From Polychytrium aggregatum (taxonomy: Eukaryota; Chytridiomycota; Chytridiomycetes; Polychytriales), in the NCBI RefSeq assembly GCF_025602895.1, contig NW_026516229.1:62001-126000 (forward strand): a stretch of DNA of 64,000 nt. The letters run 5' to 3'. Both the position numbers and the translations under genes were made by a program. The notes beneath the pieces are model-generated. The model was not told where the DNA came from and made no database searches. It saw only the letters and a program-made list of their open reading frames with translations. Shown piece by piece: positions 18,498 to 63,400 of this stretch. Every line of letters begins with the position of its first letter. The stretch's first letter is position 1.

Positions 18498-21400
18498 TCA
18501 GCGGCGCACCGCATCCGGGCCAATCTGTTGGATCGTGGAGTAATACAGGCCCTGGACTTCCTTCTCGCTGCTTCGCCAGGCCTCGCGTGCAAACGTGGCC
18601 CCTTCCATGCGGAGCGCCGTGAGGCCGAGTTCCCCAAAGTGGAAGACCACGCGCATGAAGAACTCCTGGCGCCGTCCGGTGACATCCGGGAGCGAGGGCT
18701 CCCAGTCCGTCCGCAGAAGGATGCGTCGGAGCAGGTCGCAGAGCCACATGGCGTCCCCGACGGTGTCCCCGATCGTCACGCCGGCCTGCTGGAGGGCGTC
18801 GATCAGGCTTTGGTGATGCATTCCGACGGCAATAACAAGCTTCTCCCGCCAGATGCCCCAGGTGCCGTCATCGGCTTTGCTGATCTCGGCGCCTTCGGCT
18901 GTGAGGTATTCGAAGCCGTCTTCCCAGACCGGCTCGACTGGATCGGTCATGCCGCAAGTCAGCGGCAGCAACGCGTCCAGGAGCTTCTGTGGCATCCGCT
19001 TCTGCGCCCGAGCGTTGGCAACCAAGAAGATCAGGCCAGCAAAGTTGCGGCTGTGGATGGCGATCGGGAGCCATCCGCCCTTGGATGAAGGGAGCCAGAT
19101 CACAGGCTTGCCCTTGAGCGCCTGGGTTGGGACGACTGGCTGATCCGGGCCTTCTTCTTCGGGGACCTCCAGGTCCGTGAGCCCGTGCAGCTTGGCAATG
19201 ACCAGGCCCTTGCCGCCAAAGCCGCCGATGGCAACGTAGTCCGTGTCTTCGGTCATGTAAAGTCGGCCGACAGTCGGGGCGATGTTGGAGCCCATCCAGA
19301 TCGTGTGGATGCACCGGCCCGAGACCGGATTCCAGACAAGAATGGCGCCGTCGCCTTCGCGCATCGTCAAGAGCTTGGAGTCATCATCCGACCAGGACAT
19401 GGAGATGACAGGGCCCGACGGCAGGTCGCTGCTGGTGCCCTTGGCCAAGTTCCAGAGCCGCACGACGTAGTCCGAGTCGTCCTGCGACAGCGAGGTGCGG
19501 TCGCCGCTGCGCATCGATCCCGTCGCCAAGAGGAACTCGTTTCGTCGCGCAAATGCCGAGATGGGCTTGCCCGAGTGGGGGCTCTTGAACTCGACAACGG
19601 CATCGTCCCGGCGCTTCCAGATCATGAGTACATTGCGCTCTGCGTCCCAGCCGTCGGTAAGGGCGGCCAGCAGCTGTCCGGTGCACGAGTACTCGAGGCG
19701 CTCGATTCGGCTGACCGACCCGCTGGGGTTGCCTGTCAGAGTGCCATCGTCCTTTCCCCACCAGCCGACAAGCGCGGGGATCGGCGATCCTTCGGTGTAG
19801 TGGTAGAACTTGACGGCGTTGTTGGAGTAGCCGACGGCCAGCTCGATCGAGTCCTGTGCGCGGCCAGAGGCGGCGCCACCGGATCTGGGCTGAACGGGCG
19901 CAAAGGCACAGCAGATCTCTCCAGCAACAGGCCAGTCGCGGTCCGTCTCGGCCAGGGGATCCAGCTCTTCGTACAGGGCCGTCGGTGTCGACGAGAAGAG
20001 CTCGACACCGTTGATCGAGACAGACATGTAGTACGGCTCGGTGGGATGGGCGACGACCTGCTCGATGCCCTGGATGAACACGCTCGTCATCTTGTTCTTG
20101 AGCTCGAGATCAACAATCTCGAGCATGCCCTGCTTGCCGGCACTGACGACCGCCACGGGCTCGCCCTGTGCGTTTCGCACAAAGTCGATGACTCCGGGGC
20201 ACTCGACATATTCGCCTGGGACGGTCGAGCGGGTCTTGGCCTGCGAAATGTCCCAAAGCCGAATGGTGGTGTCGTTGCCGGCCGTGGCAAGGATGTTGGC
20301 CGGGGACCGGTGGTCGAAGCGCATGGCGTGAATGTGATTGGTGTGCAGGCAATCACGGCTGATGCGCAGCATCTCGACAGAGTCGGCGACGAGAATCCAC
20401 TGCTCCACGACGCCGCCAAAGCTCGAGAGGGCGACCTGGCCGTCGTTCGAAACGGCGGCGAGGTTGACGTTGTCGTCGAGCTTCTTGTTGATCAGGCCGA
20501 CGACGTTGCCGGTGGATGTGTCGATCACCGACATGGCTCGCGAGGTTGCGACGAGAATAAAGAGTGCGTTGTGGCTCATGGCGAGGGCCAGAGGCGCCTC
20601 GTGGCGACTGTAGTCGCCGCTGTTGGGATCCAGCTTCGAGGGATACAGGCCGTACCCAAAGGTGCCGGTCTCGAGCTCGATCCACACCGCGTCCTTGTTG
20701 GCGATGGTGCCAAACATAATGACCTTGCCAGAGTCGACCATGGCGATCTGTCCGTCGTATTCGAGCAGCAGCTGCTTGAGCGTGCAGCCCTCGAGCTCCC
20801 AGACCGAGAGCTCGCAGGTGCACGGGTCGATGTCGACGTCGCGGCCCTGACCAAGGGCAACGGCAAGTTCAGTGTCGTCGTTGATCCACTGCATAACCCG
20901 CACACCAACCAACAAATTGGGGTCGCAGCCGAGATCGAAGCACTTTTTCTCCTCAAACGTGGCCGCGTCGATGAGATGGATAACGGACTCGGTCGGCCAC
21001 CAGACAGCCAGGATGGCCCCGCTGTGCGACAGGCGGAGCACAGGCTTGAGGACGCCATCGCCGTCATTGAAGGATGGGAAGTGGATGCGGTAGGTCTCGA
21101 GCCCTGTCTGGACATCCCATTTGCGTAGGATGCCGTCCGACGAGGCCGAAAAGACCGTGTTGCTGGCAATCTCGAGGGCAATGATGCTGAAGCCCTCCGA
21201 GGCGCCAGCATAGCCAAGCTCAAAGGTCTGGAAGCATCCGTGCTGCGAGTCGTCGCGGGTCAGCCAGTCGAGCCAAACGCTACCGTTTTCTTCCAGGATC
21301 TGGCGAGCAGCGAGGGCAACGAGCGAGTCTTTGGGCTGGTTGGCGGCGTGCTGGAGGGTGATGCCTGGATGGAGGCTCAGAAGCCGGAGTTCGCGTTGGA

Positions 21401-24400
21401 CAAACTTGTGGAAGGCAGAGACACGCGCGTCGATCTTGTCCGGGTGCTCGCGGGAGGCAATGTCAAAGTTCTTGAGGAAGGCAAAGAGAAGCTGCTTCTC
21501 GGCTGCGCCTTGGATCTCCCGCAGGTCGGTCATGATGTCAAACGCCTGGGTACACTCCGCGGCGTGGAGGAGATGGTAGACTTGCGTGACCACTCCGGTC
21601 CTGTCTGTGCGGCTGGCCAGGAGTAGCGGTTGGGTTTCAATATCGTCCGAAAGATCGATGTTGCCGCGGCAGCCGCTCCAGTACTCAGCGAGAGCTCGGT
21701 GCGTCTGCTGCGCAACAGAGTCGCTGCCAAGGTAGATTCTCTGGACCGCAGCCTTGACGGCAGGGTACCTCCAGACAGTTACGGTCTCTCCGAATGAGAG
21801 CTGCTCGCGCACGAGGCCCTCGAGGTCTCGCTTGAGCGAGGTCCACAAGAGAGGGGGGATGCGTTTGAGGGACGGACTGTGGATCTGTCGGCAGAGGTAC
21901 AGTGATTGGCCGTTAGCTCGGAAACACCGGCATCGGCACGAGACCCGGCACACTCACTCGGACGGCGCGAGAGCGCAGTGGTCCTAGAATCGGAGCGAGG
22001 ACAAAAACAAAAGGATAAACTTGTGCCTGTGGCGTGCAAATGTCTCCCGGGCTACCTTTTCGATCAACTCCATGAGCTCGGTGTCGAGTGTTAGGAGATC
22101 GTCCATCTCCAGCATGCTCAGCCCGAAGCGGGACGCAGTCAAATAACCCAGGGCCTTCGAAACAAGTAGTCGTCCGTGCTTCTTTTCCAGAGGTTCCAGA
22201 ATGGACTTGGAAACCAGCTCGTCCAGAGACGACGGAAGCGGATCAGCTGCATCGCTCGAGCTCCACTTGGAAGCGATCTCGGCGCACAAAGCCACCTCTG
22301 CAAGGCACTCGTGCGCCTCGCAGAATGTCCTGACACACTCCTGCTGGGGGGCAGTCAGAACTCTGTCGGCAGCGCCAAGGCGGCTGGCAACGATAAACTC
22401 TCGGTCTTTGACAGGCAGCGGCTTGACATGGTAAATTTGCTTCTCGGAGATCAAGAGACGAGCCAGGGCCGGGATGGGCTTGCCGTCAGCCTGCGGAGAT
22501 GCAGAGAAGATGAAGACAACGTTGGGAGGGATGTGCCTCGGGAGCCAGCCCAGCTCAAGGCTACGATAGTCGCTGTCAAGACGGTCGATTGAGTCGATGA
22601 CAACAATGAGCGGCTTCAGTGACGTCGCCAGCGTGAGGAACTTGGTGAGTTGGTTCACCAAAAGGGGGAACTCGGTTGGGATAGGTGCATCGGCCTCGTA
22701 AAGGATGCCGATCTGGACACAGATCGAGTGGAGAATGGAGCGGATGTCGGACGACTCGGGTGTTGCGCCAACGAATCGGTAGACAACCTGCGCATAAGGA
22801 TTAGCAACGCCGATCGCTTGGATGGTCTTGGAGATCAAGGCGGTCTTGCCAGAGCCAGAGGGGCCTGCGTCGTTTGGCCAGGGATGTATACGAGGGAGGC
22901 ATAAGCCAGGTGCAGAGCGGCTGGAGATGTGGTAATCGGTGACCGTCGGCGACAGTCGGTGGCAATCGGTGACAATCGGTGACAATCGGTGACAGGGTCC
23001 AGGATAAACTGTACATCGACGAAACGAGATGCGCTCACGACGACTACTTACCCACGATGCTAAAGACCGAGTAGTCAAAGGGTCGCTGCACCCACTGTTT
23101 GACCTGGACCATGAACTCTTCGCGGCCAACAAACTTGCTGCACTCTTCCATGGCGATCTCACGATGCGAGTTGACTTCGCGAACGATGGGATGGAGCTCG
23201 GGGTTCTCCATCTGCATCTGGTAGGCCTCGATGACCCCTCCGGCGATGGCAACAGAAAAGTCGTCGCAGAACTGCTTGAGGTACGCCTCCTGCTCTGGAC
23301 TCTTGAGGGGATTGAGGCCATCGCCCTCGTCCCACTCGATATCGTAGTCGTGGTTGGGGAACATGGATTTTCGCAGGCGATTCATGCGGCCGATGGCCTC
23401 CATGTCAATCGGATGGTTGTCGTTGAGCATATCCAGATCGATAAATTTGCTGGCCTCGACATGCTGCTGCGACGCATACTTGACCAGGTTGATGAGGTTC
23501 CGCCTATAGCCAGGACGCGAGACATGGCAAACGCAAGAGGATGAGCTACCGCGTGCAGTCTCTTCGCCAGGCATATGTAAGCATGTATCGCTGCTCAAAA
23601 GGAAGCCTTGTCGCTGAGACGCAAGGACATGCTTACTGGAAGCAGAAAAAGCTGTCGGTTTCGCGGCCCAAGGTCTCGTTGCTTGCGATGGACACCTGGC
23701 TATGTGTCGTCGAGGAGCGGTATTTTTCGGTGGTCTCCTCGGGCTGCCCTTCGATGCCCTTGCGGAGGGCCCTCTGGACACTCATCGAGACCTTGACCCA
23801 CTCTCCCCGCGCTTCGGCCTGAAGGACAGGGTCCTCCGAGATGAAGTTGGGGATGTGCGAAGAAACACGCTTGAGCTGGTAGACGGGCGGGTTGATGTTG
23901 TCGTTTTTCTCGTACCAATCCTGAACGAGTCGGAGCATCTCGTTTCCATCACCCTCAGATGCGATCGACAGCTTGTTGACGATGATGTCGTATTCCTCGA
24001 CCGACAGCGTGCGAGGAGGAGGGCGGTAGCCATACTTGTTGCCTGGTTGCAGCGAGGGATGCGTGAGTGGTCAACACGGACGCCGGTATCGTTGGTTACC
24101 CGGTCAATCGACCCGGCTATGGTGAGCGCCTTGTCCCCAGGAAGAGTTGCATGGCCGAGCTGAAGCAACCCAAGCAACTCGTCCAACCCGAGTGGCCGGC
24201 ACGACTCACCCAGCAGACACGCAAATGCAGGGCCGGCCGACTGCTTGATCGACTTTGACAGTTCGTTGAAGATGACCTGTTCGACCCAGTATGAGCATGG
24301 ATACCTCTGTGCATGGCTTTGCTCCTTCATACCAACATCGACATCTCTGACTGATTGTAGCCAGCTGGCGGTCACCGTTCTTACGCCACGGTCGTCTCTC

Positions 24401-37931: not shown

Positions 37932-40900
37932 TCAGGCAGTGCAACAAGCCATAATCAGAGAATCAGGTCGGATGCAGATACATACACATATGATCGTAAA
38001 GGTGTACCTCGCCATGCAAAGAGCATTTTGACTGTTGAGGACTCGAGGTTCGGTGCTGAAGAGCGAGTAAGGTACCTTGGTGCGATGCTCCCAGTGCTTG
38101 ATCCACTGATCACCCGCGGCATCCTGTTTCAGCTCCCATCGATCGAGCGACTGGCACTGCTCCAGGATTCGCATGTTCTTTGCAAGTGGCTTGGCAGTTC
38201 CTCTCTCGAGCAGCCACGATGAGATATCACTCGATCCATCGCTCGACTCGATGGTGGATTCGTCCTCACCGATCCGGACCATCAACACACCGCTCCAATG
38301 AGCTTCGAACAACGCGGCTTCTTGGCCTGTGACTCGGTCCCAGACTCTGATCCATCCATCCCATCCGCCGGTGGCAATCAGTTTGGGCGAAATGTCGATG
38401 GCGCACACGCCGTACTTACTCCCCGCAAGAGTCCGGATGGCATTTCCAGTTGCAACATCCCAGACGATGGCGGTCGTGTCGGTGGAGCCTGTGACCAATT
38501 GGTTTCCGTCCGACGAAAACTTGACAGCCAGCACCTCGGCCGTATGTTGGCTCAGAGTGCGAACCAATCTGCCGGTCAGGGCATTCCAGATCTTGGCCGT
38601 GCAATCCTTGGATCCCGTCGCGACAAGCCGGCCGTCTTCGGAGAAGGTAACGGCGGCAATCATGCCGGTGTGCTTCTCGCTGGTGGCCTCGAGGGTATTC
38701 TGGGCCGCGACACTCGAGAGATCCCAGAGCCTCACGGTCATGTCGACGGATCCAGAGACGACGGTCATGCTGTCGGGCGAGATCGTAACCGAGCCGATCT
38801 GTCTGGTGTGTCCGCTGAAGACGCCCTTCAGCGTGCCGTCGGCGAGACCCCAGACCTTGATCTCGCCATCATCGGAACCGGCCACGAGGAGCGTCTCATC
38901 AGTCGTCACGGCAACAGAGCGCACCGGGGAGCCCTGATTGAAGCTCTGGATTTGCTCGCCAGACTCCAGGTTCCACACTTGGATCAGTCCTTTCTTGTTT
39001 CCCGAGACGATGCGAGTGTCGTTCGAGGTGAGGGCAATTGTGTACACTCTTTCTTTCACATTGATTGTTTTGCGGCAGGCGCCAGTCTCCTTCCAGATTC
39101 GAATGGTTTTGTCGATGGATCCAGTAACTATCGTCAAGCCATCCTTCGACAGGGCGACCGATCGAACGTCGCGATCATGGCCACAAAGAGTCTGCTGGAG
39201 AGTTCCCTGCGCCACATCCCATACCTTGATAGTCCAGTCTTCCGAGCCTGACACGAGGGTCTTGCCATCACTGGAGAACGCCAGGGATGTTATTTCGTCC
39301 TCGTGATGATCCAGCCTGTGGAGCACGGTGCCAGTGACGACATCGATGATTCTTAGAACTTGATCAACGGATCCAACAGCAATCCTTTGGGTCGCAGAGG
39401 AAAGCGCAACGACTTTGATTTTGCAGGGCAGCGGGCCGATGCTCCGTTTGAGCTGTCGAGTAGTGGAATCCCAAAGCTTGATGTATTGATCAAGCGATCC
39501 AGACACAATCGTCTTTGAGTCCGAGGAGACTGCAACAGAGCACACCACGTCGGTATGACCCGACAGCGTCGCCTCACACAAGTCCCAAGTGGACCCAGGA
39601 CCGGCCGTGACCAGGAACGGGATCTTGTCCTCGAGTCGGTCGGCATATGTCTTGTAGATCGCCGTCTCCTTCGGTGTGAATGCATATCCCGAGTTGTACA
39701 CCTGTGGTGCACTCTTGATGATCGGGTCGGCAAACTCGCGGATGAATCGATACGTGTCCTTGACCAGTTCCTTTGTGGTGTCGTCGACGATGGTGCTGGG
39801 TGCCTTGGCGATCACTCCTCGCAGCACAGCCAGTTGCTCGATGATCGGCTTGATGGCATATGTAAGAGATCCACACTCGAGCCAGAAGAACACATGCGTC
39901 TTGACGAACCGAGCGAACACCGTGGTTGCCTCGACGAGCTCAGGCGACTGCCACACCGGACTCGACTCGGCCACTCCTTTCAGACACCACACAAAGTGTG
40001 TGATCCAGTGGGCGACGCTGTATCGCAGCGACGGCGAGATCTTGAGCCTGACCTTGGAATCAAAGTCATGAATCATGGTTTGGACGTCATAGATCTCGCA
40101 GATGTTGACCGCGGGCTCGTGCGAGAGGATCACTCCGAGACATCCCTTGGCGAACTTCACATGGAACTCTTTCGGCACATGCCATGGTTCGTCCTTGGAC
40201 TCCTCGCCGAGGAGATAGTCCGCCACCGATTTGTGGTTGAACTTGACCTCGCCATCGTCGGTGGATCCGTTGGCAACACGATCCAACACCATCTCCAGAT
40301 TCTTGAGGCAGTGGCGCACGGTCATCAAGGCGTATACCGACTCTCGGCCAATGAAGAAGATCTGGGCCAGTGTTCTGGGTGTCTGGATTGATTGTGCCGT
40401 AGCGATCGCCGAGATCACGGTGATCAGGTCTTCTTTGTCGCGACAGTGGTTGTAGAGCATCGAAAAGGTCTTTTGGTACAGCTGGCCGACATCGTTGGAG
40501 CCGCTGCTGATGGATTTGATTCTTTGCAGGGTGGTACGCTGGTCGTTGGTGCCACGCTTCAGGGATTTCAGAATCAGATCGATCCACACAAAGGTTTTGG
40601 ACTGGCTCAGCAGGATGGTGACTGCCTCGGTGCAGTCCGCTTCATTGAGGCTCGTCTCGTTTTTCAAGCGGTGACGGATGTACAGTTCCAGATCGGCAAT
40701 GTTCTCCTCGCTCGACGGCTTGATGGTCTTTGTCGCCAGGCTCTGGAAGGCCTCGGTGATGTCTCTTTCGGGACGCGATGTCAGCAGCAGTTTGACTTTG
40801 AGATTTTTGCTGAGCAGAGGCAGCCTCTGGGTCAAGAGAGTCAGCATTTCGTCCCGAGGGAAGCACTCATCAAGGCCATCAACAACAATTACAGCAGCTC

Positions 40901-42997
40901 CCTTGGGATGATACTGCTCCAGGGCAGTGATGGGGCTCTCGATAATGGTTGCGAATAGATCGGAAATGGGCATCTTCTCGAGATTCTCTCTACTGAGCTT
41001 GGCTTCGATGAGTTTTCGGCCGATCGGAGCATACCAGCAGCATAAACCAAAAGCAATTGTTGTGATGATATCACGGGGATTGTTCTTTTGGGCTTCGTTG
41101 TACTTGAGGAACAGCGCCGAGACCAGCTGGTCCGTGCTGAGGAGCATATTGGCAATCTGCGCCGCAGCAACAGACTTGCCTGCTCCAGCATCGGCATTGA
41201 TCCACAAGACTGTATCGGAAGTATTGCTGCTGGCCCAGTCGGTGACCTCTTTGAACAACCACTGGCGCGTGCCCTCGACATACAAATCTTGCATAGCCTT
41301 CCTGTCCGAATCAGAGTTGATGGGATTGAGGAGGGTATGCAGCTTTGTCACATCTTCGGCATCAAGAACGATAGATTCCTTGACATCATAGTTGGATTCG
41401 GGTGCTGCAGCGATCTGTGTTCGAGAAATGAGCTGGAAGATCTCTGGAGCAAGCCTGTTTTCAAGACCGGAGATGCGAGTTAGCCATCGACGTGTGTGTT
41501 TGGTGCCAGGATGACCAGCAACAAGAGTTTGAAACAGGCCGAAACTTACTTGGCAAGAGCATAGCTGTTTGTCGCAAACAATCCCTGAAGCTTCAAAAGC
41601 TTCTTGAGCACGTTTCGGATCGTAGAACGTGGTGGCACCGAGCTGAGCCGTGACGGACTGGACGGGTGACAGTGTACTTCGTCAGGATAATCATCGCAAT
41701 TTGGAACCCAGGCTGAGTAGTAGTCCTTGCCGTCAATGTAACTCTTGGAATTCATAAAGACAGGCAAGACGACGACAGGCGACGACGATCCCTTGGAGCT
41801 TTCCATTTGCTGCAGAGCCACCTCGATCTGCGATTGATGAAAGTGGCATGGATATGAGAATCACATGCATAACAAACCGAGTCAAGTCTTTCGCATCACT
41901 ACCCAGGCGACGATGGCATACCTCCAGCAGCTGATTGTCAGGCCATCTGTGGGCATTCTTGGCCCGCTCGAGTCCCTTCTCGGACAAGATGATAACAATG
42001 ACCTGCGAGTTGAGGATGCCGTTGTAGAAGCCCTCCTCAAATGGCATGGAGGTGGCAAGGCACATTTGGTCGAGATATACACGTCGGTCGTAAGTGTCCG
42101 TTGTTTTCTTGGTGATAAGTGTGGCGTAGAGATTGACGACAGCATCTTTCTCGGTCACGACACGGTAGCTGAGAATTGATATTACCGAGTGAGAGGACAA
42201 CAAAATCAGCATGGTGGTGGCCGCAGAGCCAAAAGGTAATCGATCTATTCCCTTATGAGGAGCCGTTGGCTCGCCGGAGAATCGTCCGAATGATAGCGCA
42301 GGGCGAACATACCTGATGAACACATGGTGGTGCTTGTGTCCAAGCGCACATTGCCAGTTGCTAACGATATTGAGCGGTATGTAGGCCTGCACGACGTTAT
42401 GCTCTGGGGCAGACTCGCCGGATTGAGCGACCGGGGGAGCGGGGCCGGATTGAGCGGTCGGAGGAGTGGAGCTGGATTGAGCAGCTGGAGGAGAAGGACT
42501 GCCAGACTGGGTGGCGGGGTCCAAGGGCGGAGCAGATCGAACAAGATTCGGTTCGCTTGGAGGTTGGACTGCGCTGCTGCCATCGTTGCTAGTGACGATA
42601 GCGGTGTTGCTAGTGACGATGGCGGTGTTGCTGGGGCCGGTAGCGGTGTTATGATCCGGTGTGGAAGGGTTGGGAGAGCCTGGAAGAGGTTGACGCATGG
42701 CTGCCTGGATGTCCCTGATTCGCACCTTGATGCCGACGCTGAAATCCAGTTTGTCCATATCGCCCTCGGTCAGACCGCAGAGCTGCAGAGGCGACAAGTG
42801 TCAGAGCGGGGCTTTCCAGCAGAGAAACCGGAGCAAGGCAAGCCAGAGCAGGAGATGGCAAAGCAGAGTAGATGGCAAACACACACATCGCCGATGGTTT
42901 CAATATCATTGTTCTGCAGGCGGTCCCCTATCTTCTCGAGGCGGTTATTACGGAGCCACTCCTGAGTGATCTCAGTATTCAGAGAGCGATTGCTCAT
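37932..42997 (-). CDS. SAM-TIR-NACHT-WD40 STAND receptor-like protein
   Basis: Five exons (42997-42887, 42782-42313, 42168-41922, 41827-41550, 41454-37932) give 1542 residues in one frame. Residues 1-65 form a SAM domain (WLRNNRLEKIGDRL, DIETIGD, then LTEGDMDKLDFSVGIKVRI). A Pro/Ser/Ala linker follows. The TIR domain (about 190-330) opens with HVFISYRVVTEKDAV, created by the exon 2/3 splice. It continues with RRVYLDQMCLA, SQVIVIILSEKGLE and DNQLLE joined to IEVALQQM; that Glu aligns with the catalytic Glu of TIR NADases. The NACHT ATPase has Walker A NADAGAGKS, Walker B AAVIVVDGLDECF and LLLTSRPERD. Eleven WD40 units close the protein. By analogy with NLR and SARM1 proteins, ligand binding to WD40 would drive oligomerisation and NAD cleavage. 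That is inference. Confidence 0.9.
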
Positions 42998-58477: not shown

Positions 58478-60065
58478 ATGAACCAGAGCGTGCTGACGAC
58501 CGAAGACGTCGAGACGGCCATCAAAATCCTTATAGTCGGCAACGGCAGCGTCGGCAAGTCGTCGCTGATTCGGCGATTTTGTCGAGGCCAGTTTACCGAA
58601 AACTATAAGAAAACCATCGGCGTGGACTACATGGAGCGCGATATCACTGTTCCAGGCCACCATGGCGATGTGAAGCTCATGGTTTGGGATACCGCCGGTA
58701 TGCTCGGATATCGGTGCTCTTCAGTGCGCTTGGTGCTCCAAGCGGCCCCTGCGTCGTCTTTGCTTGAGTTCTGCGTGTGCTTCTGGAGCAATGCGTCGCT
58801 GGGTTGTCGCATGGCTACGTGCATCTCAGGAAGATGCTGACCACGCCGCACTGTGCATTGGCGACAGGCCAGGAAGAGTTTGATAGCATAACCAAGGCAT
58901 ATTACAAAGGTTCGTATCCTCCGGTCGTGCACCCGCCGTATCGGCGGCTGCAGACGCGGGTGGGCTCGCAAGATCGGTGCGCCGATTGACTTCCAGAATG
59001 CCTGACTGATTCGGCGGCCTCCTCGGCCAGACGCCAATGCTCTCGTGCTGGCGTTCTCAACCACGGACCGACAGTCATTCGAGACTATCAAGTCGTGGCG
59101 ATCCAAGGTCGAGCAAGTGTGCGACGATCTTTCGATGGTTCTAATCCAAAATAAGATCGATCTCATCGGAAGCGCCGCCGTCACCAAGTAAGTCGGATTT
59201 ATCCATCCCCAGCAAATATTGATGTCGCATGGCTGGGTTCTGTTCAATCGAAACCATGCTCTCAAATCCCGGAGCAGCGGGCGTGTTGGTGGGCAGATTA
59301 CTCAGGCCTATCCCGAATTGCACTTATCGCTCGCCAGCGAGGAAGCCGAGAGCCTTGCCCGCGAGCTCAAGCTCAAGTTTTACCGAATCTCGGTCAAGGA
59401 TTCGCTGAATGTCGAAGAGAGTACGTGTCGTCGTCGTCCTTGCAGATCCGAGTTACTTGCCGTCCACGCGATAGCCCAGGACGACGGCGGCGATTCCGAT
59501 GCTGGACTGTTGACGGCATTCGCTATCGAATGTGTGTCAATGCATATCTTTCTCAGCCAATGAGTGGGCTTTGCAGCATGGTTCGCATACGGGCAGCTAA
59601 CGCTGCACGGGTCCCACAGCTTTCCAATATATAGCAGAGCTCCACCTGAAGCGGCTTAAGGAGCGAGCCAAGAACGCCGTGGGCCCGATCAAACCCCGTA
59701 AGTAACCGATCCGTCCAGCGACCATGCCGCAATCCCACCCTGCTCCCGCCAGAAACTAACCAAGGACACTGATACCACCGACCTTAGCAACACTTGAGAC
59801 TGTGATGGCTCGGAAAACAAACACGTTCCTGGATCCAGTGCCGCCCAGCTCCCCGGCCAGATCCCCGTCGCCTTCGACAACTGTCCCGGGTGCCCCTGCT
59901 GCATCTGCTGCATCTGCTGCGCCTGTTGCCCACTCTGCCGGAGGACTGGCTACCTCGGCCCAGGAAAAGAGCCCTTCCCGAACGTCTTTCCCAGGCAGCG
60001 AGCGGCCTCAGTCAGCCCGAGGCGGCAAGACAGGGACTGCAAAGAAAGACTGCATTGTATCATAG
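58478..60065 (+). CDS. RAB23: RAB23-like small GTPase with CaaX end
   Basis: Six exons (58478-58697, 58868-58909, 59031-59187, 59338-59420, 59620-59697, 59788-60065) give 285 residues. The GTPase core reads ILIVGNGSVGKSSLIRRFCR (P-loop), YKKTIGVDYMERDI (switch I) and WDTAGQEEFDSITKAYYKG (switch II). VLAFSTTDRQSFETIKSWR, VLIQNKIDLIG and LKFYRISVKDSLNVEE follow. KTIGVD.ER, ITKAYY.G and FSTTDR.SFE are specific to RAB23 rather than other Rabs. A long Pro/Ser/Ala-rich tail ends KKDCIVS, a CaaX box. The terminal Ser favours farnesylation by known CaaX rules. RAB23 acts in ciliary traffic in animals. Flagellated fungi keep ciliary genes that Dikarya have lost. Confidence 0.93.
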
Positions 60066-60491
60066 CACAGCAACCATCGACGAGATCACTGTGGCAAGAT
60101 CAGCAACTCATGCGTTCGCACAGAGTAATAGACAATCTTGCCCTTTGGAAGCCGATGGCGCCGTCTTTCTGGATCCTGAATACACTTGACAGCCAATCAA
60201 ATGCAGAACGGGACACCCTGGTTTTTGATCAACGACTCAAGATTTGCTGCCTTGTACCATCGTGCACTGGCCACGGCCTTCACTCGGGGGCTGCCGAGAT
60301 GATGGTCTGGTTCGGCGCCGGCTATCCCAGACTGCATGTTCGCTTGGAGTGGAGCTGGCGAGCGCCCTGCAATGCATCCTCGTCAGCGGCACTGTTGCGT
60401 TCGCGCCATCTCCCCAGCCCCAACAGCCCCAACAGCCCCTTCTTGGTCCTCATCGAGACCAGCACGCCGAATCCATCTTGCGAGCACTACA
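60066..60491. other. Intergenic: 3' of RAB23 and 5' of FAM114-like gene
   Basis: Apart from the mobile-element copy at 60188-60302 nothing was recognised. The promoter of the next gene should lie in 60303-60491. Confidence 0.45.
60188..60302 (+). mobile_element. Second copy of the TnpB/Fanzor-like element, internally deleted
   Basis: CAATCAAATGCAGAACGGGA (60194-60213) and the TTTTTGA that follows match 17901-17937 with few changes and one gap. The end, CTTCACTCGGGGGCTGCCGAGA then TGA at 60300-60302, matches the end of the reading frame at 18083-18107. About 100 bp containing the RuvC-like motif is missing. The frame around the junction is kept (RALATAFTRGLPR versus RALAMT ... VFTRRLPK). The right inverted end was not found. 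Confidence 0.55.
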
Positions 60492-63400
60492 ATGAGTGCC
60501 GACCCTCACCAAAGGCCCGTCGCAGAGCCCCTCCACTCTTCTCCGATGCTTGCCGCTGTTCCCGAATCCATGTCTGCCGAGCCCTCGCCTGCTCCGTCGG
60601 GATCGCCCCAGCCAGGCACGCTACCAATTCCCGAGCGCATCATGGAGAGCGGTTCGGACGTTCAGACGGCCTGCATAGAGCTCAGACGGCCTGCATAGTT
60701 CTCGTCGCTGGGAGCGTGCTCGTTGACCGACCGAAGATGATGGCGAGCGACTGACAGGACGAGTGCGGCGGCGCTCTACCAGCACCTCCAATGCCACGAC
60801 TCTTGTTGCGAAACTCATACTCATCCTCTATGTATATATGTATCGCAGCGGGTTTCCCACTCGCTCCTCATCATCCTGCTCCTGTCCGTGACCAAGACCA
60901 AGATGACCAGGATGACCAAGACACATCGTCTGCCCCACCTCCGTCCAAGAGCTGGGGCTGGGGATTCGTCAACATAGCCAACAACCTCGCCTCCGACCCG
61001 ATCTCGTTTCTGTCGTCTGCCGCCTCGACCGCAGTGAACTCGGCCTCGTCGGCCGTCAACACCGTCAGCGAGGCACTCATGGAGCCCACAGACTTGATAT
61101 CCAGTGTTACGGAGCTCACTAAGGAAGCCAAAAACAAGGCCGTTGCTCTTGGTAATGCAGCGGGCGAGAATCCAGAGAGCAATCGTGCATGCACAACCGC
61201 CGCCTTTACTGCGTGACGTGGAACTGACTGCTTTCCCCAACCAACCATAGGCAAGGAGATCCGCTCGGCAACCACCAAGGCCGTCGAGTCTCTGGACAAG
61301 GAGTTTAGCATGGACTCATCCCGAGATGATCGCGCGCTCTACCCCGATGCTGATGCCAGCCCGGTCGAAGCCGAAGAGCGTGCTCAGGAAAAGGTGGGCA
61401 TGATGAGGAAGGAGCAGACCGAAAGTGCCGGGATGTTGGAAGCGATGCAGCCAGCGATGCAGCCAGCGATGCGCCAGCGATGCAGCTTCTGGCTGATATC
61501 CGTGATCTCTTAGCAGGCCGAATCGCTGCTTATACAAATGGACAAGACCCTGGACATGGCCGCCAGCGCCGTCGGCCAAACAATCATGGTACGTACCGCC
61601 GAGGCAGCTTCCTTCGAGTCCCGAGCTCGGGCAGAGGCATTGCCCCAGCGTCAGTTGGTTCGTTGTTTTGGGTCGCTCATCCGTCTCGCCGTTGGGTGTG
61701 CAGACCGGGTATAGGAAGATTGGCGAGAGCCATCTCGTGAAAGATGTCCGTGAGTCCGAGACTCTGCAGCAAGGACTCGAAATCGGCCAACAAGCCGTCA
61801 GCCAAGGACTCCAGACGCTGGAATATTTTGGAGCCAAGGCCCTGTCTGCATTGATGGTAAGCGTGCACAAAGCCCTTCGATGGCCCTGAGTCCTTGAATC
61901 CTGCCCCGAACAATTTGCGATTGCAGAGACGCCGGTATCGGATGAACGAACGATTGACCTGAGGCGGTCTGCTTCCGCTATAGGATATTGGCTCGCCAAC
62001 CGAAGTCTCGCCAAGCAATCCAGTGGGTGAATCCAAAGTGAGTCCATTGTGTGAGAAGCACTGATATGACTGAGCAGCGCATGTCCATGCCCACCGGCTT
62101 GGGTGAACATCGCTCACAGAACCCAAGCGTGCGGGCCCGAACTGCACGGATGGCGAGCAAGCCCGCAGCTTCTGATTGCATGGCTGAATCCAAATCTGTC
62201 CACCCCGCTTACGTTTCGTCGCCGGCTCGACGCTCGGTACAGTCGATCGAACAACTCTTTGAAGAGCAGGGCGGAGGTGTTCGTCTCCAGGTAACTCACC
62301 ACAGTCACACGGCTGTCCGGATGCTTGCTTAGCCACACTCCTGTGCCAGCACGACTGACGCCAGATCACCCGCTTTCAGGCCCTTGATCTTCTCTCTGTC
62401 GAGGCAACCGAGCGACTCTCCAAGTTGCCGGTGTCCGACGACGAAGTGGTCAACAACGTCCAAGCCACTTTGAATCAGTCTGTGATTCTTTCCGAAGCAC
62501 TCTCGCGAAAGGGCAGCCTCTTTACCTCCCCGGACCATCTGACGCGGTGGGCAGTAGTTGTCGGTCGCCTGGGTCATGAGTCTGACAAGATCATGAAGGA
62601 CATCCAGGACATCTCCATCTCGGCGAGTGGCTTCCAGGCAGACAAGCTGGCTGTCTACAACAAAGGCAAGCATTGTCATTCGACCCGAATGTGTAGCGGC
62701 CGATGCGATGGCGCTGCCACGTTGTTGACTGCAACTCCACATGGCTCTGCCGAGGCGGTCGTGGGATCTGCGCTACCCGGATCCGTCTATGTTTGTCGCA
62801 GTGTCGCAGTGTCGGGCGAAAGGCGCCGACGGAGATCAAGTGCGCCAAAGATTGACGCTGACTGTCGACTGGATACAGATCTGGAAACCCTGGCGTCCAG
62901 CGGCGAACCGCTCTGCCAAGCCATGATCGATGCTGTCAACAATGCGTAAGTACATTGGTGTAGCTGGACCACAGCGCACGATGGACTACAACTCACGGCC
63001 ACTCTGGCTTTGATTGCTGTTTGCAGATACCAGACGAGTGCCCGGTCCAAAGCTCAGATGACCGAAAAGGCTTGTGAGCAGGTATGGATCGATGCCGGCG
63101 TCCCATGGCTCTGTCGTTGCATCGGCTGCTGTCTCACGGCCGGGTGTGCCGTCAATACCAGCTTGATGGGCTACCTGGCCCCGGCTCAAGCGTATCGCCC
63201 ATGCTAACAGCTCGGACTGACGCTAGATCCTGAGGATATCCGAGTTGATTTTGATGCGTATCCGCCATCTGGAAGCCAAGGAAGCTGCTTCGGCCGACAG
63301 CAGCAAGCAGCCCCCTGTCCTTGAAATTGCCAAGATGCTGAAGAATATGACAGTTGCCTTCATTGCGGTAGGATCCCTGTCTGGCAGCACAACCCCGTTG

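Follow-up and report, generated by a model that had tools for sequence, protein, structure and literature searches.

The window, a 64,000-nucleotide stretch of the Polychytrium aggregatum genome, carries on its minus strand a five-exon gene (37932..42997) whose predicted product joins SAM, TIR, NACHT and WD40 domains in one chain. With a NACHT NTPase, C-terminal repeats and an N-terminal TIR, the predicted protein has the features of a NACHT-type STAND/NLR receptor. The same genome holds at least 88 assembled TIR–NACHT loci, haplotype copies included, and these dozens of related genes suggest a large, little-described fungal immune-receptor family. The functional reading that we favour, and regard as rather probable, is that of a STAND sensor in which activation would cluster the SAM–TIR heads and trigger cleavage of NAD in the service of cell death or defence. 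More broadly, the chances are about even that this chytrid bears a plant-like repertoire of true TIR-NLRs, with a SARM1-like SAM–TIR NADase head placed on a fungal NACHT–WD40 body.

Four GT–AG introns (42886-42783, 42312-42169, 41921-41828 and 41549-41455) interrupt the gene, and the spliced frame translates into 1542 residues followed by a stop. Exon 1 (42887..42997; splice check and translation) encodes the first half of the SAM domain, and exon 2 (42313..42782; splice check and spliced alignment) encodes its second half, a linker and the TIR entry HVFIS. The TIR core, with the Glu codon at its end, lies in exon 3 (41922..42168; splice check), and the C-terminal half of the TIR in exon 4 (41550..41827; splice check and spliced alignment). 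Exon 5 (37932..41454; splice check) contains the NACHT, a winged-helix region, the WD40 array and a C-terminal tail. A homology-guided spliced alignment with a Chytriomyces hyalinus protein (P0001) as the guide returned the same four introns. Two extra introns from this alignment, within the low-complexity linker, were taken as spurious; P0001 is shorter there. A sequence-only reading of the window had proposed this five-exon, four-domain frame and had suggested that HVFISYR and DNQLLE-IEVAL are each created by splicing. Both proposals hold, with intron 2 cutting HVFIS/YR within the Ser codon and intron 3 cutting LLE/IEVAL right behind the Glu codon (41924-41922). Contig C169 is identical to the window across a 2,201-base stretch (exons 1–4 and part of exon 5), so the haplotype comparison was uninformative on the gene model.

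The TIR domain spans residues 186-365 (41561..42338). Taken alone, this piece matched Pfam TIR_2 just above the cut-off (29.0 bits versus 28), in line with the TIR call of the sequence-only reading, and HET was absent from the three Pfam families that it matched at E up to 1. Relatives scored lower, which counts against the favoured reading: the L051 model (22.0), P0009 (20.1) and P0011 (20.2) fell below the TIR_2 cut-off of 28, and P0010 and P0012 gave no TIR_2 match at E up to 0.1. The top solved-structure match of the family TIR profile was the NAD-cleaving TIR of SARM1, with the Glu aligned. Glu276 (41922..41924) thereby falls at the SARM1 catalytic position, while Asn occupies the place of the SARM1 Trp four residues before it; the kept Glu and lost Trp had both been read correctly from the sequence, the latter counting against the favoured reading. 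A Glu is found at this position in all 25 aligned rows and at 68 of the 70 close loci; the other two have Gly or Gln, again a point against. An intron directly follows the catalytic-position codon in 70/70 close loci, and the DN..LE motif is invariant at its D, N, L and E positions in alignments A2 and A3. Within the family, TIR dN/dS has a median of 0.23 and is below 1 in 178/178 usable pairs. The predicted fold of P0010, a SAM–TIR relative from the same genome used here in place of the window protein, resembles SARM1 and plant TIRs, and Foldseek also returned SARM1 as the best PDB match for this model. Foldseek matches covering SAM and TIR together had low TM scores (0.37-0.39) and high rmsd (14.5-17.7); these values count against the favoured reading, and a SARM1-like domain arrangement is therefore not demonstrated. 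As judged by sequence for the family and by the predicted model for P0010, a TIR fold is present.

Ahead of the TIR lie a SAM domain (residues 8-66; 42696..42976), split by intron 1, and, from the translation, a low-complexity linker (residues 67-178; 42360..42695). The window SAM alone stayed under all Pfam cut-offs (SAM_EPH, E 0.0011; SAM_2, E 0.022), which counts against the favoured reading. SAM_2 was matched by 12/12 aligned family members at E up to 0.1 (best 4.1e-8), the family profile matched Caskin SAMs (1.1e-10), and the annotated same-genome relatives P0009 and P0010 exceeded the Pfam SAM cut-offs; these matches support the SAM call for the window gene. Among 24 loci examined, 16 have a full SAM, one a partial SAM and seven none, the last eight counting against the favoured reading. 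The SAM is interrupted by an intron in 16/16 loci where it was found. P0009 has two SAM-like stretches ahead of its TIR.

The NACHT domain (NPHP3_N; residues 430-596; 40773..41273) was matched in the spliced protein with a Pfam E of 6.3e-28, and PF05729 was also above cut-off at this locus. Key residues of its Walker A (GAGKS) and Walker B (VVDGLDEC) motifs are invariant in A3, as are 8 of the 11 columns of a KFNHKSVADYL motif that follows the NACHT (residues 773-783; 40212..40244). The WD40 array (residues 1001-1450; 38211..39560) gave a Pfam E of 1.2e-76. Eleven units had been proposed; the array stands, but the count is 10 by an HMM trained partly on the gene's own units, for which an eleventh would be too weak. 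WD40 repeats are present at 7/7 loci read at length. The units of the window gene are diverged, with a mean identity of 0.17 versus 0.87 at L048, and so show no sign of rapid repeat turnover; this counts against the favoured reading. Towards the C terminus, the WIKHWEHRTKVPYSLF region (38055..38123) forms a tail motif that, by eye, resembles the tails of paralogues L045, L049 and L051.

The TIR lies upstream on the same strand at 70/70 close loci, which collapse to 52 groups at 99% and 41 groups at 97% nucleotide identity over the TIR stretch. TIR loci without a NACHT match in the examined stretch also occur in the genome, for example the annotated SAM–TIR-only P0010. One allele-like pair (L066 and L067) consists of a copy with the Glu and a copy without it, Gly standing in its place. 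In a tree of 19 rows the base was not resolved and the window gene sat on a long branch, so we name no member as ancestral.

The gene product would be an intracellular STAND (NLR-type) receptor, whose C-terminal WD40 propeller may sense a ligand or monitor the state of some guarded protein. As an ATP-dependent switch, the NACHT would oligomerise on release, and the N-terminal SAM–TIR head would be the output, with the SAM aiding assembly of the TIR cluster. Clustered TIRs would cleave NAD+ via Glu276, by which the cell would be killed or arrested, or an ADP-ribose signal made. Functionally, a sensor with putative NAD-cleaving activity fits best, and we infer oligomerisation, NADase activity, ligand sensing and a part in cell death or defence. 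The family, in which heads are conserved and WD40 arrays vary, is amplified in the manner of an immune repertoire.

The TIR may instead be a non-enzymatic adaptor, the SAM–TIR heads forming a scaffold that recruits separate, acting TIR proteins. The missing SARM1 Trp and the two loci that have lost the Glu fit such a role, for which TIR loci lacking a NACHT match, such as P0010, could supply the partners, but the retention of the Glu elsewhere in the family and the invariant DN..LE residues argue against it, and we consider an adaptor unlikely. We are similarly doubtful that the family acts in allorecognition, that is, in fungal self/non-self discrimination as in Podospora HET-NACHT-WD40, rather than in defence against viruses or parasites. 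Consistent with allorecognition, the NACHT–WD40 body is the same, the TIR sits where the TIR-related HET does, and the WD40 repeats of L048 are near-identical; fungal genes of the HET-NACHT-WD40 type control incompatibility, according to the accessible part of one paper (PMC12881547).

Two further alternatives concern the genes rather than their function. The expansion could be mostly copy-number noise, with many pseudogenes or assembly duplicates and few working genes. Near-identical duplicate contigs do exist in the assembly (C169 versus C190), the 70 loci shrink on clustering, the TIR model of L075 contains a stop, and L085 and L019 score low. Yet 41 groups are still a large family, and both the low TIR dN/dS and the conserved intron position behind the Glu codon argue against this explanation, which we judge improbable. 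Much less probable still is that adjacent SAM–TIR and NACHT–WD40 genes were falsely merged over intron 4. A SAM–TIR-only gene (P0010) in the genome, and deposited models of P0009, P0011 and P0012 that end inside or close to the TIR, speak for a wrong join; against it, intron 4 was found again using a Chytriomyces protein predicted as a single chain, other genomes have P0001 and P0002 modelled as one chain each, and the TIR precedes every close NACHT on the same strand.

SARM1, an animal NAD hydrolase, resembles the NAD-cleaving sensor proposed here in having SAM and TIR in one chain and in its catalytic Glu, whose position aligns without a gap from the preceding strand onwards. SARM1 has the order ARM-SAM-SAM-TIR, with the TIR C-terminal. 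One paper (PMC7075850), in the portion available, describes a C-terminal TIR paired with SAM or Arm. The window protein has one SAM, and its SAM–TIR is N-terminal to NACHT–WD40, leaving no room for ARM; the Trp near the Glu also differs. Only 185 residues precede the TIR, and no ARM family appeared among the 25 of 57 Pfam matches listed for the full protein, nor among those of its SAM and TIR pieces. Podospora HNWD proteins (HET-E, HET-D and HET-R; HET-NACHT-WD40) share an N-terminal TIR-related domain, NACHT, WD40 and organisation as a gene family. HET, however, is only remotely TIR-related, and SAM is absent from the sources as far as available, whereas the window protein has a TIR_2-type TIR, with no HET among the families matched by that piece. 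Compared with plant TIR-NB-ARC-LRR proteins, NACHT replaces NB-ARC, WD40 replaces LRR and a SAM is added; neither NB-ARC nor LRR was among the 25 of 57 Pfam matches listed.

If the TIR-NLR reading is correct, an early-branching fungal immune system uses SAM-assisted TIR clustering and NAD cleavage, as a counterpart to the Dikarya HET-domain NLRs, whose enzymatic activity is still unproven. According to the accessible text of a review, the HET domain of fungi is yet to be demonstrated to act like a TIR (PMC10197012), and that of a 2014 survey reports no NLR matches in chytrids (PMC4986451). As a group of fungal NLRs, the family combines a TIR_2-type TIR with a conserved Glu and comes in many natural variants, among them the allele-like pair. 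It opens three questions to direct test: do fungi employ NAD-cleaving TIR-NLRs, in what way do SAM and NACHT drive TIR clustering, and when did TIR-NLRs arise?

The available portions of published work mention TIR in NLRs of Chytridiomycota (PMC9815663) and describe fungal TIR-NLRs as a small group (PMC10197012). These proteins of Daskalov and colleagues likewise carry an N-terminal TIR on a fungal NLR, but a SAM–TIR–NACHT–WD40 family of this size is not described in those portions. In the literature found, we saw no description of the four-domain design or its amplification. The sequence-only reading knew of no fungal protein with all four domains. That no such protein exists is not supported: in P0001 (Chytriomyces hyalinus HDU78_009105, nr), precomputed Pfam matches include SAM, TIR, NACHT and WD40. 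The four-domain gene in a chytrid thus stands but its uniqueness does not, given P0001 and the many TIR–NACHT loci of the same genome.

P0001 shares 40% identity with the window protein over 59% of the SAM–TIR part and keeps the Glu; unlike the window gene, its deposited model has a second SAM–TIR at the C terminus, perhaps a fused neighbour. P0002 (Chytriomyces sp. MP71 BC830DRAFT_1233804, nr) also keeps the Glu. It has NACHT and WD40 by Pfam and three WD40 units by HMM; SAM–TIR was found by alignment and is absent from its precomputed Pfam list. Both are unnamed nr proteins with no recorded function. P0003 has NACHT and WD40 among the matches listed, and P0004 (508 aa) has NACHT. A scan of prokaryote genome contigs with the SAM–TIR alignment, run without a positive control, gave 27 pattern matches and none confirmed by tblastn; within its sensitivity, a recent bacterial source has no support. 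A profile search with SAM–TIR–NACHT returned eight proteins at E up to 1e-10 (7,999 candidates scored), and the four strong ones (P0001-P0004) were all from Chytriomyces, which does not support a wider fungal spread of the design. The SAM–TIR search returned 26 proteins at E up to 0.01 (7,506 candidates), adding Polychytrium P0009-P0012, single Siphonaria, Cladochytrium and Rhizoclosmatium proteins, and unnamed TIR or TIR-like proteins.

The SAM-TIR-NACHT-WD40 gene occupies 42997–37932 on the minus strand. Splice checking and translation gave five exons and a frame of 1542 residues, as the sequence-only reading had proposed; all four introns are GT-AG. The same four introns were picked by spliced alignment guided solely by the Chytriomyces hyalinus protein P0001, the only input protein to a small purpose-written program. 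This alignment also placed two extra introns, both in the low-complexity linker, which we took as spurious because P0001 is shorter there. The frame continues past the WD40 array into a tail that resembles, by eye, those of the paralogues L045, L049 and L051; the frame is therefore supported to about residue 1502, the last 40 residues excepted.

Pfam searches of the full protein matched WD40 (E = 1.2e-76) and the NACHT-type NTPase family NPHP3_N (E = 6.3e-28), bearing out both assignments. The proposed TIR domain was likewise recovered, with TIR_2 matching the TIR piece at 29.0 bits, barely over the cut-off of 28. The proposed SAM domain fell under the Pfam cut-off in the single sequence and emerged with its relatives: SAM_2 was matched by 12 of 12 aligned members with E no greater than 0.1 and as low as 4.1e-8, two of these rows coming from P0001, and a profile of the 12 matched solved SAM domains of Caskin and Eph receptors, the strongest at E = 1.1e-10. 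Two annotated proteins of the same genome exceeded their cut-offs, P0009 for SAM_1 (28.7 bits; cut-off 23) and P0010 for SAM_2 (23.4 bits; cut-off 20.5). By these profile matches, the SAM is clear once relatives are included. The TIR alignment likewise had 12 rows, two of them again from P0001, and every row matched TIR_2 with E no greater than 0.1, some below the cut-off; the L051 model scored 22.0 bits (cut-off 28), and P0010 had no TIR_2 match at E up to 0.1.

Against solved structures, the family TIR profile best matched SARM1 TIRs (E = 8.8e-6), and the family Glu (Glu276 in this gene) aligned with the Glu of the SARM1 KEI motif. SARM1 carries a Trp four residues before this Glu, whereas the family has an Asn facing it; a Glu kept at the catalytic position and a Trp that is not kept are what had been read from the sequence. 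The SARM1 Glu was taken as the catalytic one from the title of structure 7cm7 (NAD+-bound Sarm1 E642A) and a passage on the Glu required for SARM1 NADase activity (PMC6040629), its exact position being presumed. Glu occupied this position in all 25 aligned rows, many of them close copies and L014, L015, L018 and L019 being left out of the count. Over 70 loci, 68 had Glu, the exceptions being L067 with Gly and L083 with Gln. L067 (G000:C66:32277-33377) groups at 99% TIR-stretch identity with L066 (G000:C397:964098-965198), which has Glu. An intron lies immediately 3' of this codon in 70 of 70 loci, 66 of which also had an intron called at the SYR Ser. The TIR dN/dS is low (median 0.23, interquartile range 0.17–0.31) across the 178 of 2415 locus pairs passing filters, which are non-independent and do not include this gene.

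The finding is real, and larger than the sequence-only reading had it. Polychytrium aggregatum is placed in Chytridiomycota, Polychytriales by its taxonomy record, and its assembly (G000; 64.7 Mb, 418 contigs), in which the window spans positions 62001–126000 of contig C190, holds an expanded family. A NACHT-region search gave at least 75 matches, merged into 70 places (70 of 166 candidates scored), every one with a TIR match upstream on the same strand. With 150 of 238 candidates scored, the TIR search reported at least 180 matches; the listed ones, 150 rows, fell into 109 places, 39 without a close NACHT in the first NACHT list. Among the 26 of these inspected, NACHT was present at 18 (14 of 20 newly fetched, plus L018, L022, L045 and L006), one on contig C169 was a copy of the window gene, and seven, including L103 at a contig end, had none. 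The NACHTs of L006 and L117 are distant, at about 30% identity. Altogether, at least 88 TIR-NACHT loci are assembled, haplotype copies counted. Some contigs of the assembly are near-identical duplicates: C169 and the window agree over 2201 bases at 100% and over 6859 at 99.8%. The TIR stretches of the first 70 loci collapse under single linkage to 52 groups at 99% and 41 at 97% nucleotide identity, so the true gene number lies below 88. All seven loci read at length (L045–L051) carry 7–11 WD40 units after the NACHT. TIR genes at C386:1072842, C46:286122, C363:213896, C68:231151 and other places had no NACHT match in the stretches examined and belong to other subfamilies.

Among 24 loci with upstream sequence, 16 had a SAM profile score of at least 97, each with one intron within the SAM; L019 scored weakly (48), and seven were at background (L006, with just 171 bases upstream, L014, L015, L020, L021, L049 and L050). 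Shuffled controls, 20 per locus, reached a maximum of 39. Nine of the 16 had gone into the profile and most others are near-copies, L045 (score 102) being the independent case, so that SAM is common, not universal, in the set examined. P0009, deposited for L075, has two SAM-like stretches ahead of the TIR (residues 57–109 and 137–188), an order recalling the two SAMs and TIR of SARM1. The TIR model built for L075 (G000:C57:39169-40269) contains a stop. P0010 is a short SAM-TIR-only gene (L110, G000:C23, about 59800–61700) that keeps the Glu and had no NACHT match in the downstream stretch examined; it is a possible partner of the receptors.

Outside this genome, strong relatives of the SAM-TIR-NACHT part, among the candidates scored from about 5.8 billion proteins, were all from Chytriomyces (P0001–P0004). 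By precomputed Pfam, P0001 alone of the four has all four domains, and the view that no fungal protein combines them is not supported. Its residues of about 1395–1690 form a second SAM-TIR at the C terminus of the deposited protein, which may truly be double-headed or may be an annotation that merged two tandem genes. Shorter TIR relatives occurred in other chytrids and unnamed records, and no prokaryotic relative was confirmed. The eight matches listed in the SAM-TIR-NACHT profile search included no Polychytrium-named protein; P0009, P0011 and P0012, as deposited, are short models that sit at family loci, with pieces matching L075, L045 and L098, respectively, at 96.8–100%.

Passages in the literature report no NLR matches in chytrids (PMC4986451), TIR in Chytridiomycota NLRs and a SAM_Ste50p family among the N termini of fungal NLRs (PMC9815663), a small group of fungal TIR-NLRs (PMC10197012), fungi with a TIR-like HET domain (PMC9153377) and the HNWD family (PMC12881547). 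The titles and abstract openings covered, from a search mostly outside the subscription literature, named no SAM-TIR-NACHT-WD40 family or Polychytrium NLRs. The gene and its family are fungal TIR-NLRs, a kind already known from such passages, in a variant with a SARM1-like SAM-TIR head. By analogy with NLRs, the most likely scheme is that the WD40 array would act as sensor, the NACHT as a switch that oligomerises, and the SAM-TIR head would cluster and cleave NAD. The domain anatomy, the retained Glu, the low TIR dN/dS and the family expansion are what the data establish. The WD40 units of L048 share a mean identity of 87%, reaching 100%, whereas those of the window gene have diverged to 17%, so paralogues may differ in their rate of sensor change.

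A second NACHT gene lies at 18498–23781 on the minus strand, with a C-terminal sequence that is WD40-like by eye. The stretch around it (L001) had no match to the family's SAM, TIR or NACHT queries, and its NACHT (22386–22865) is the best PF05729 match in the genome. It resembles animal NWD1. On the 3' side of L045 and L047, open frames that may belong to these genes adjoin or overlap the family-gene 3' end; by eye, they encode SEL1-like repeats.
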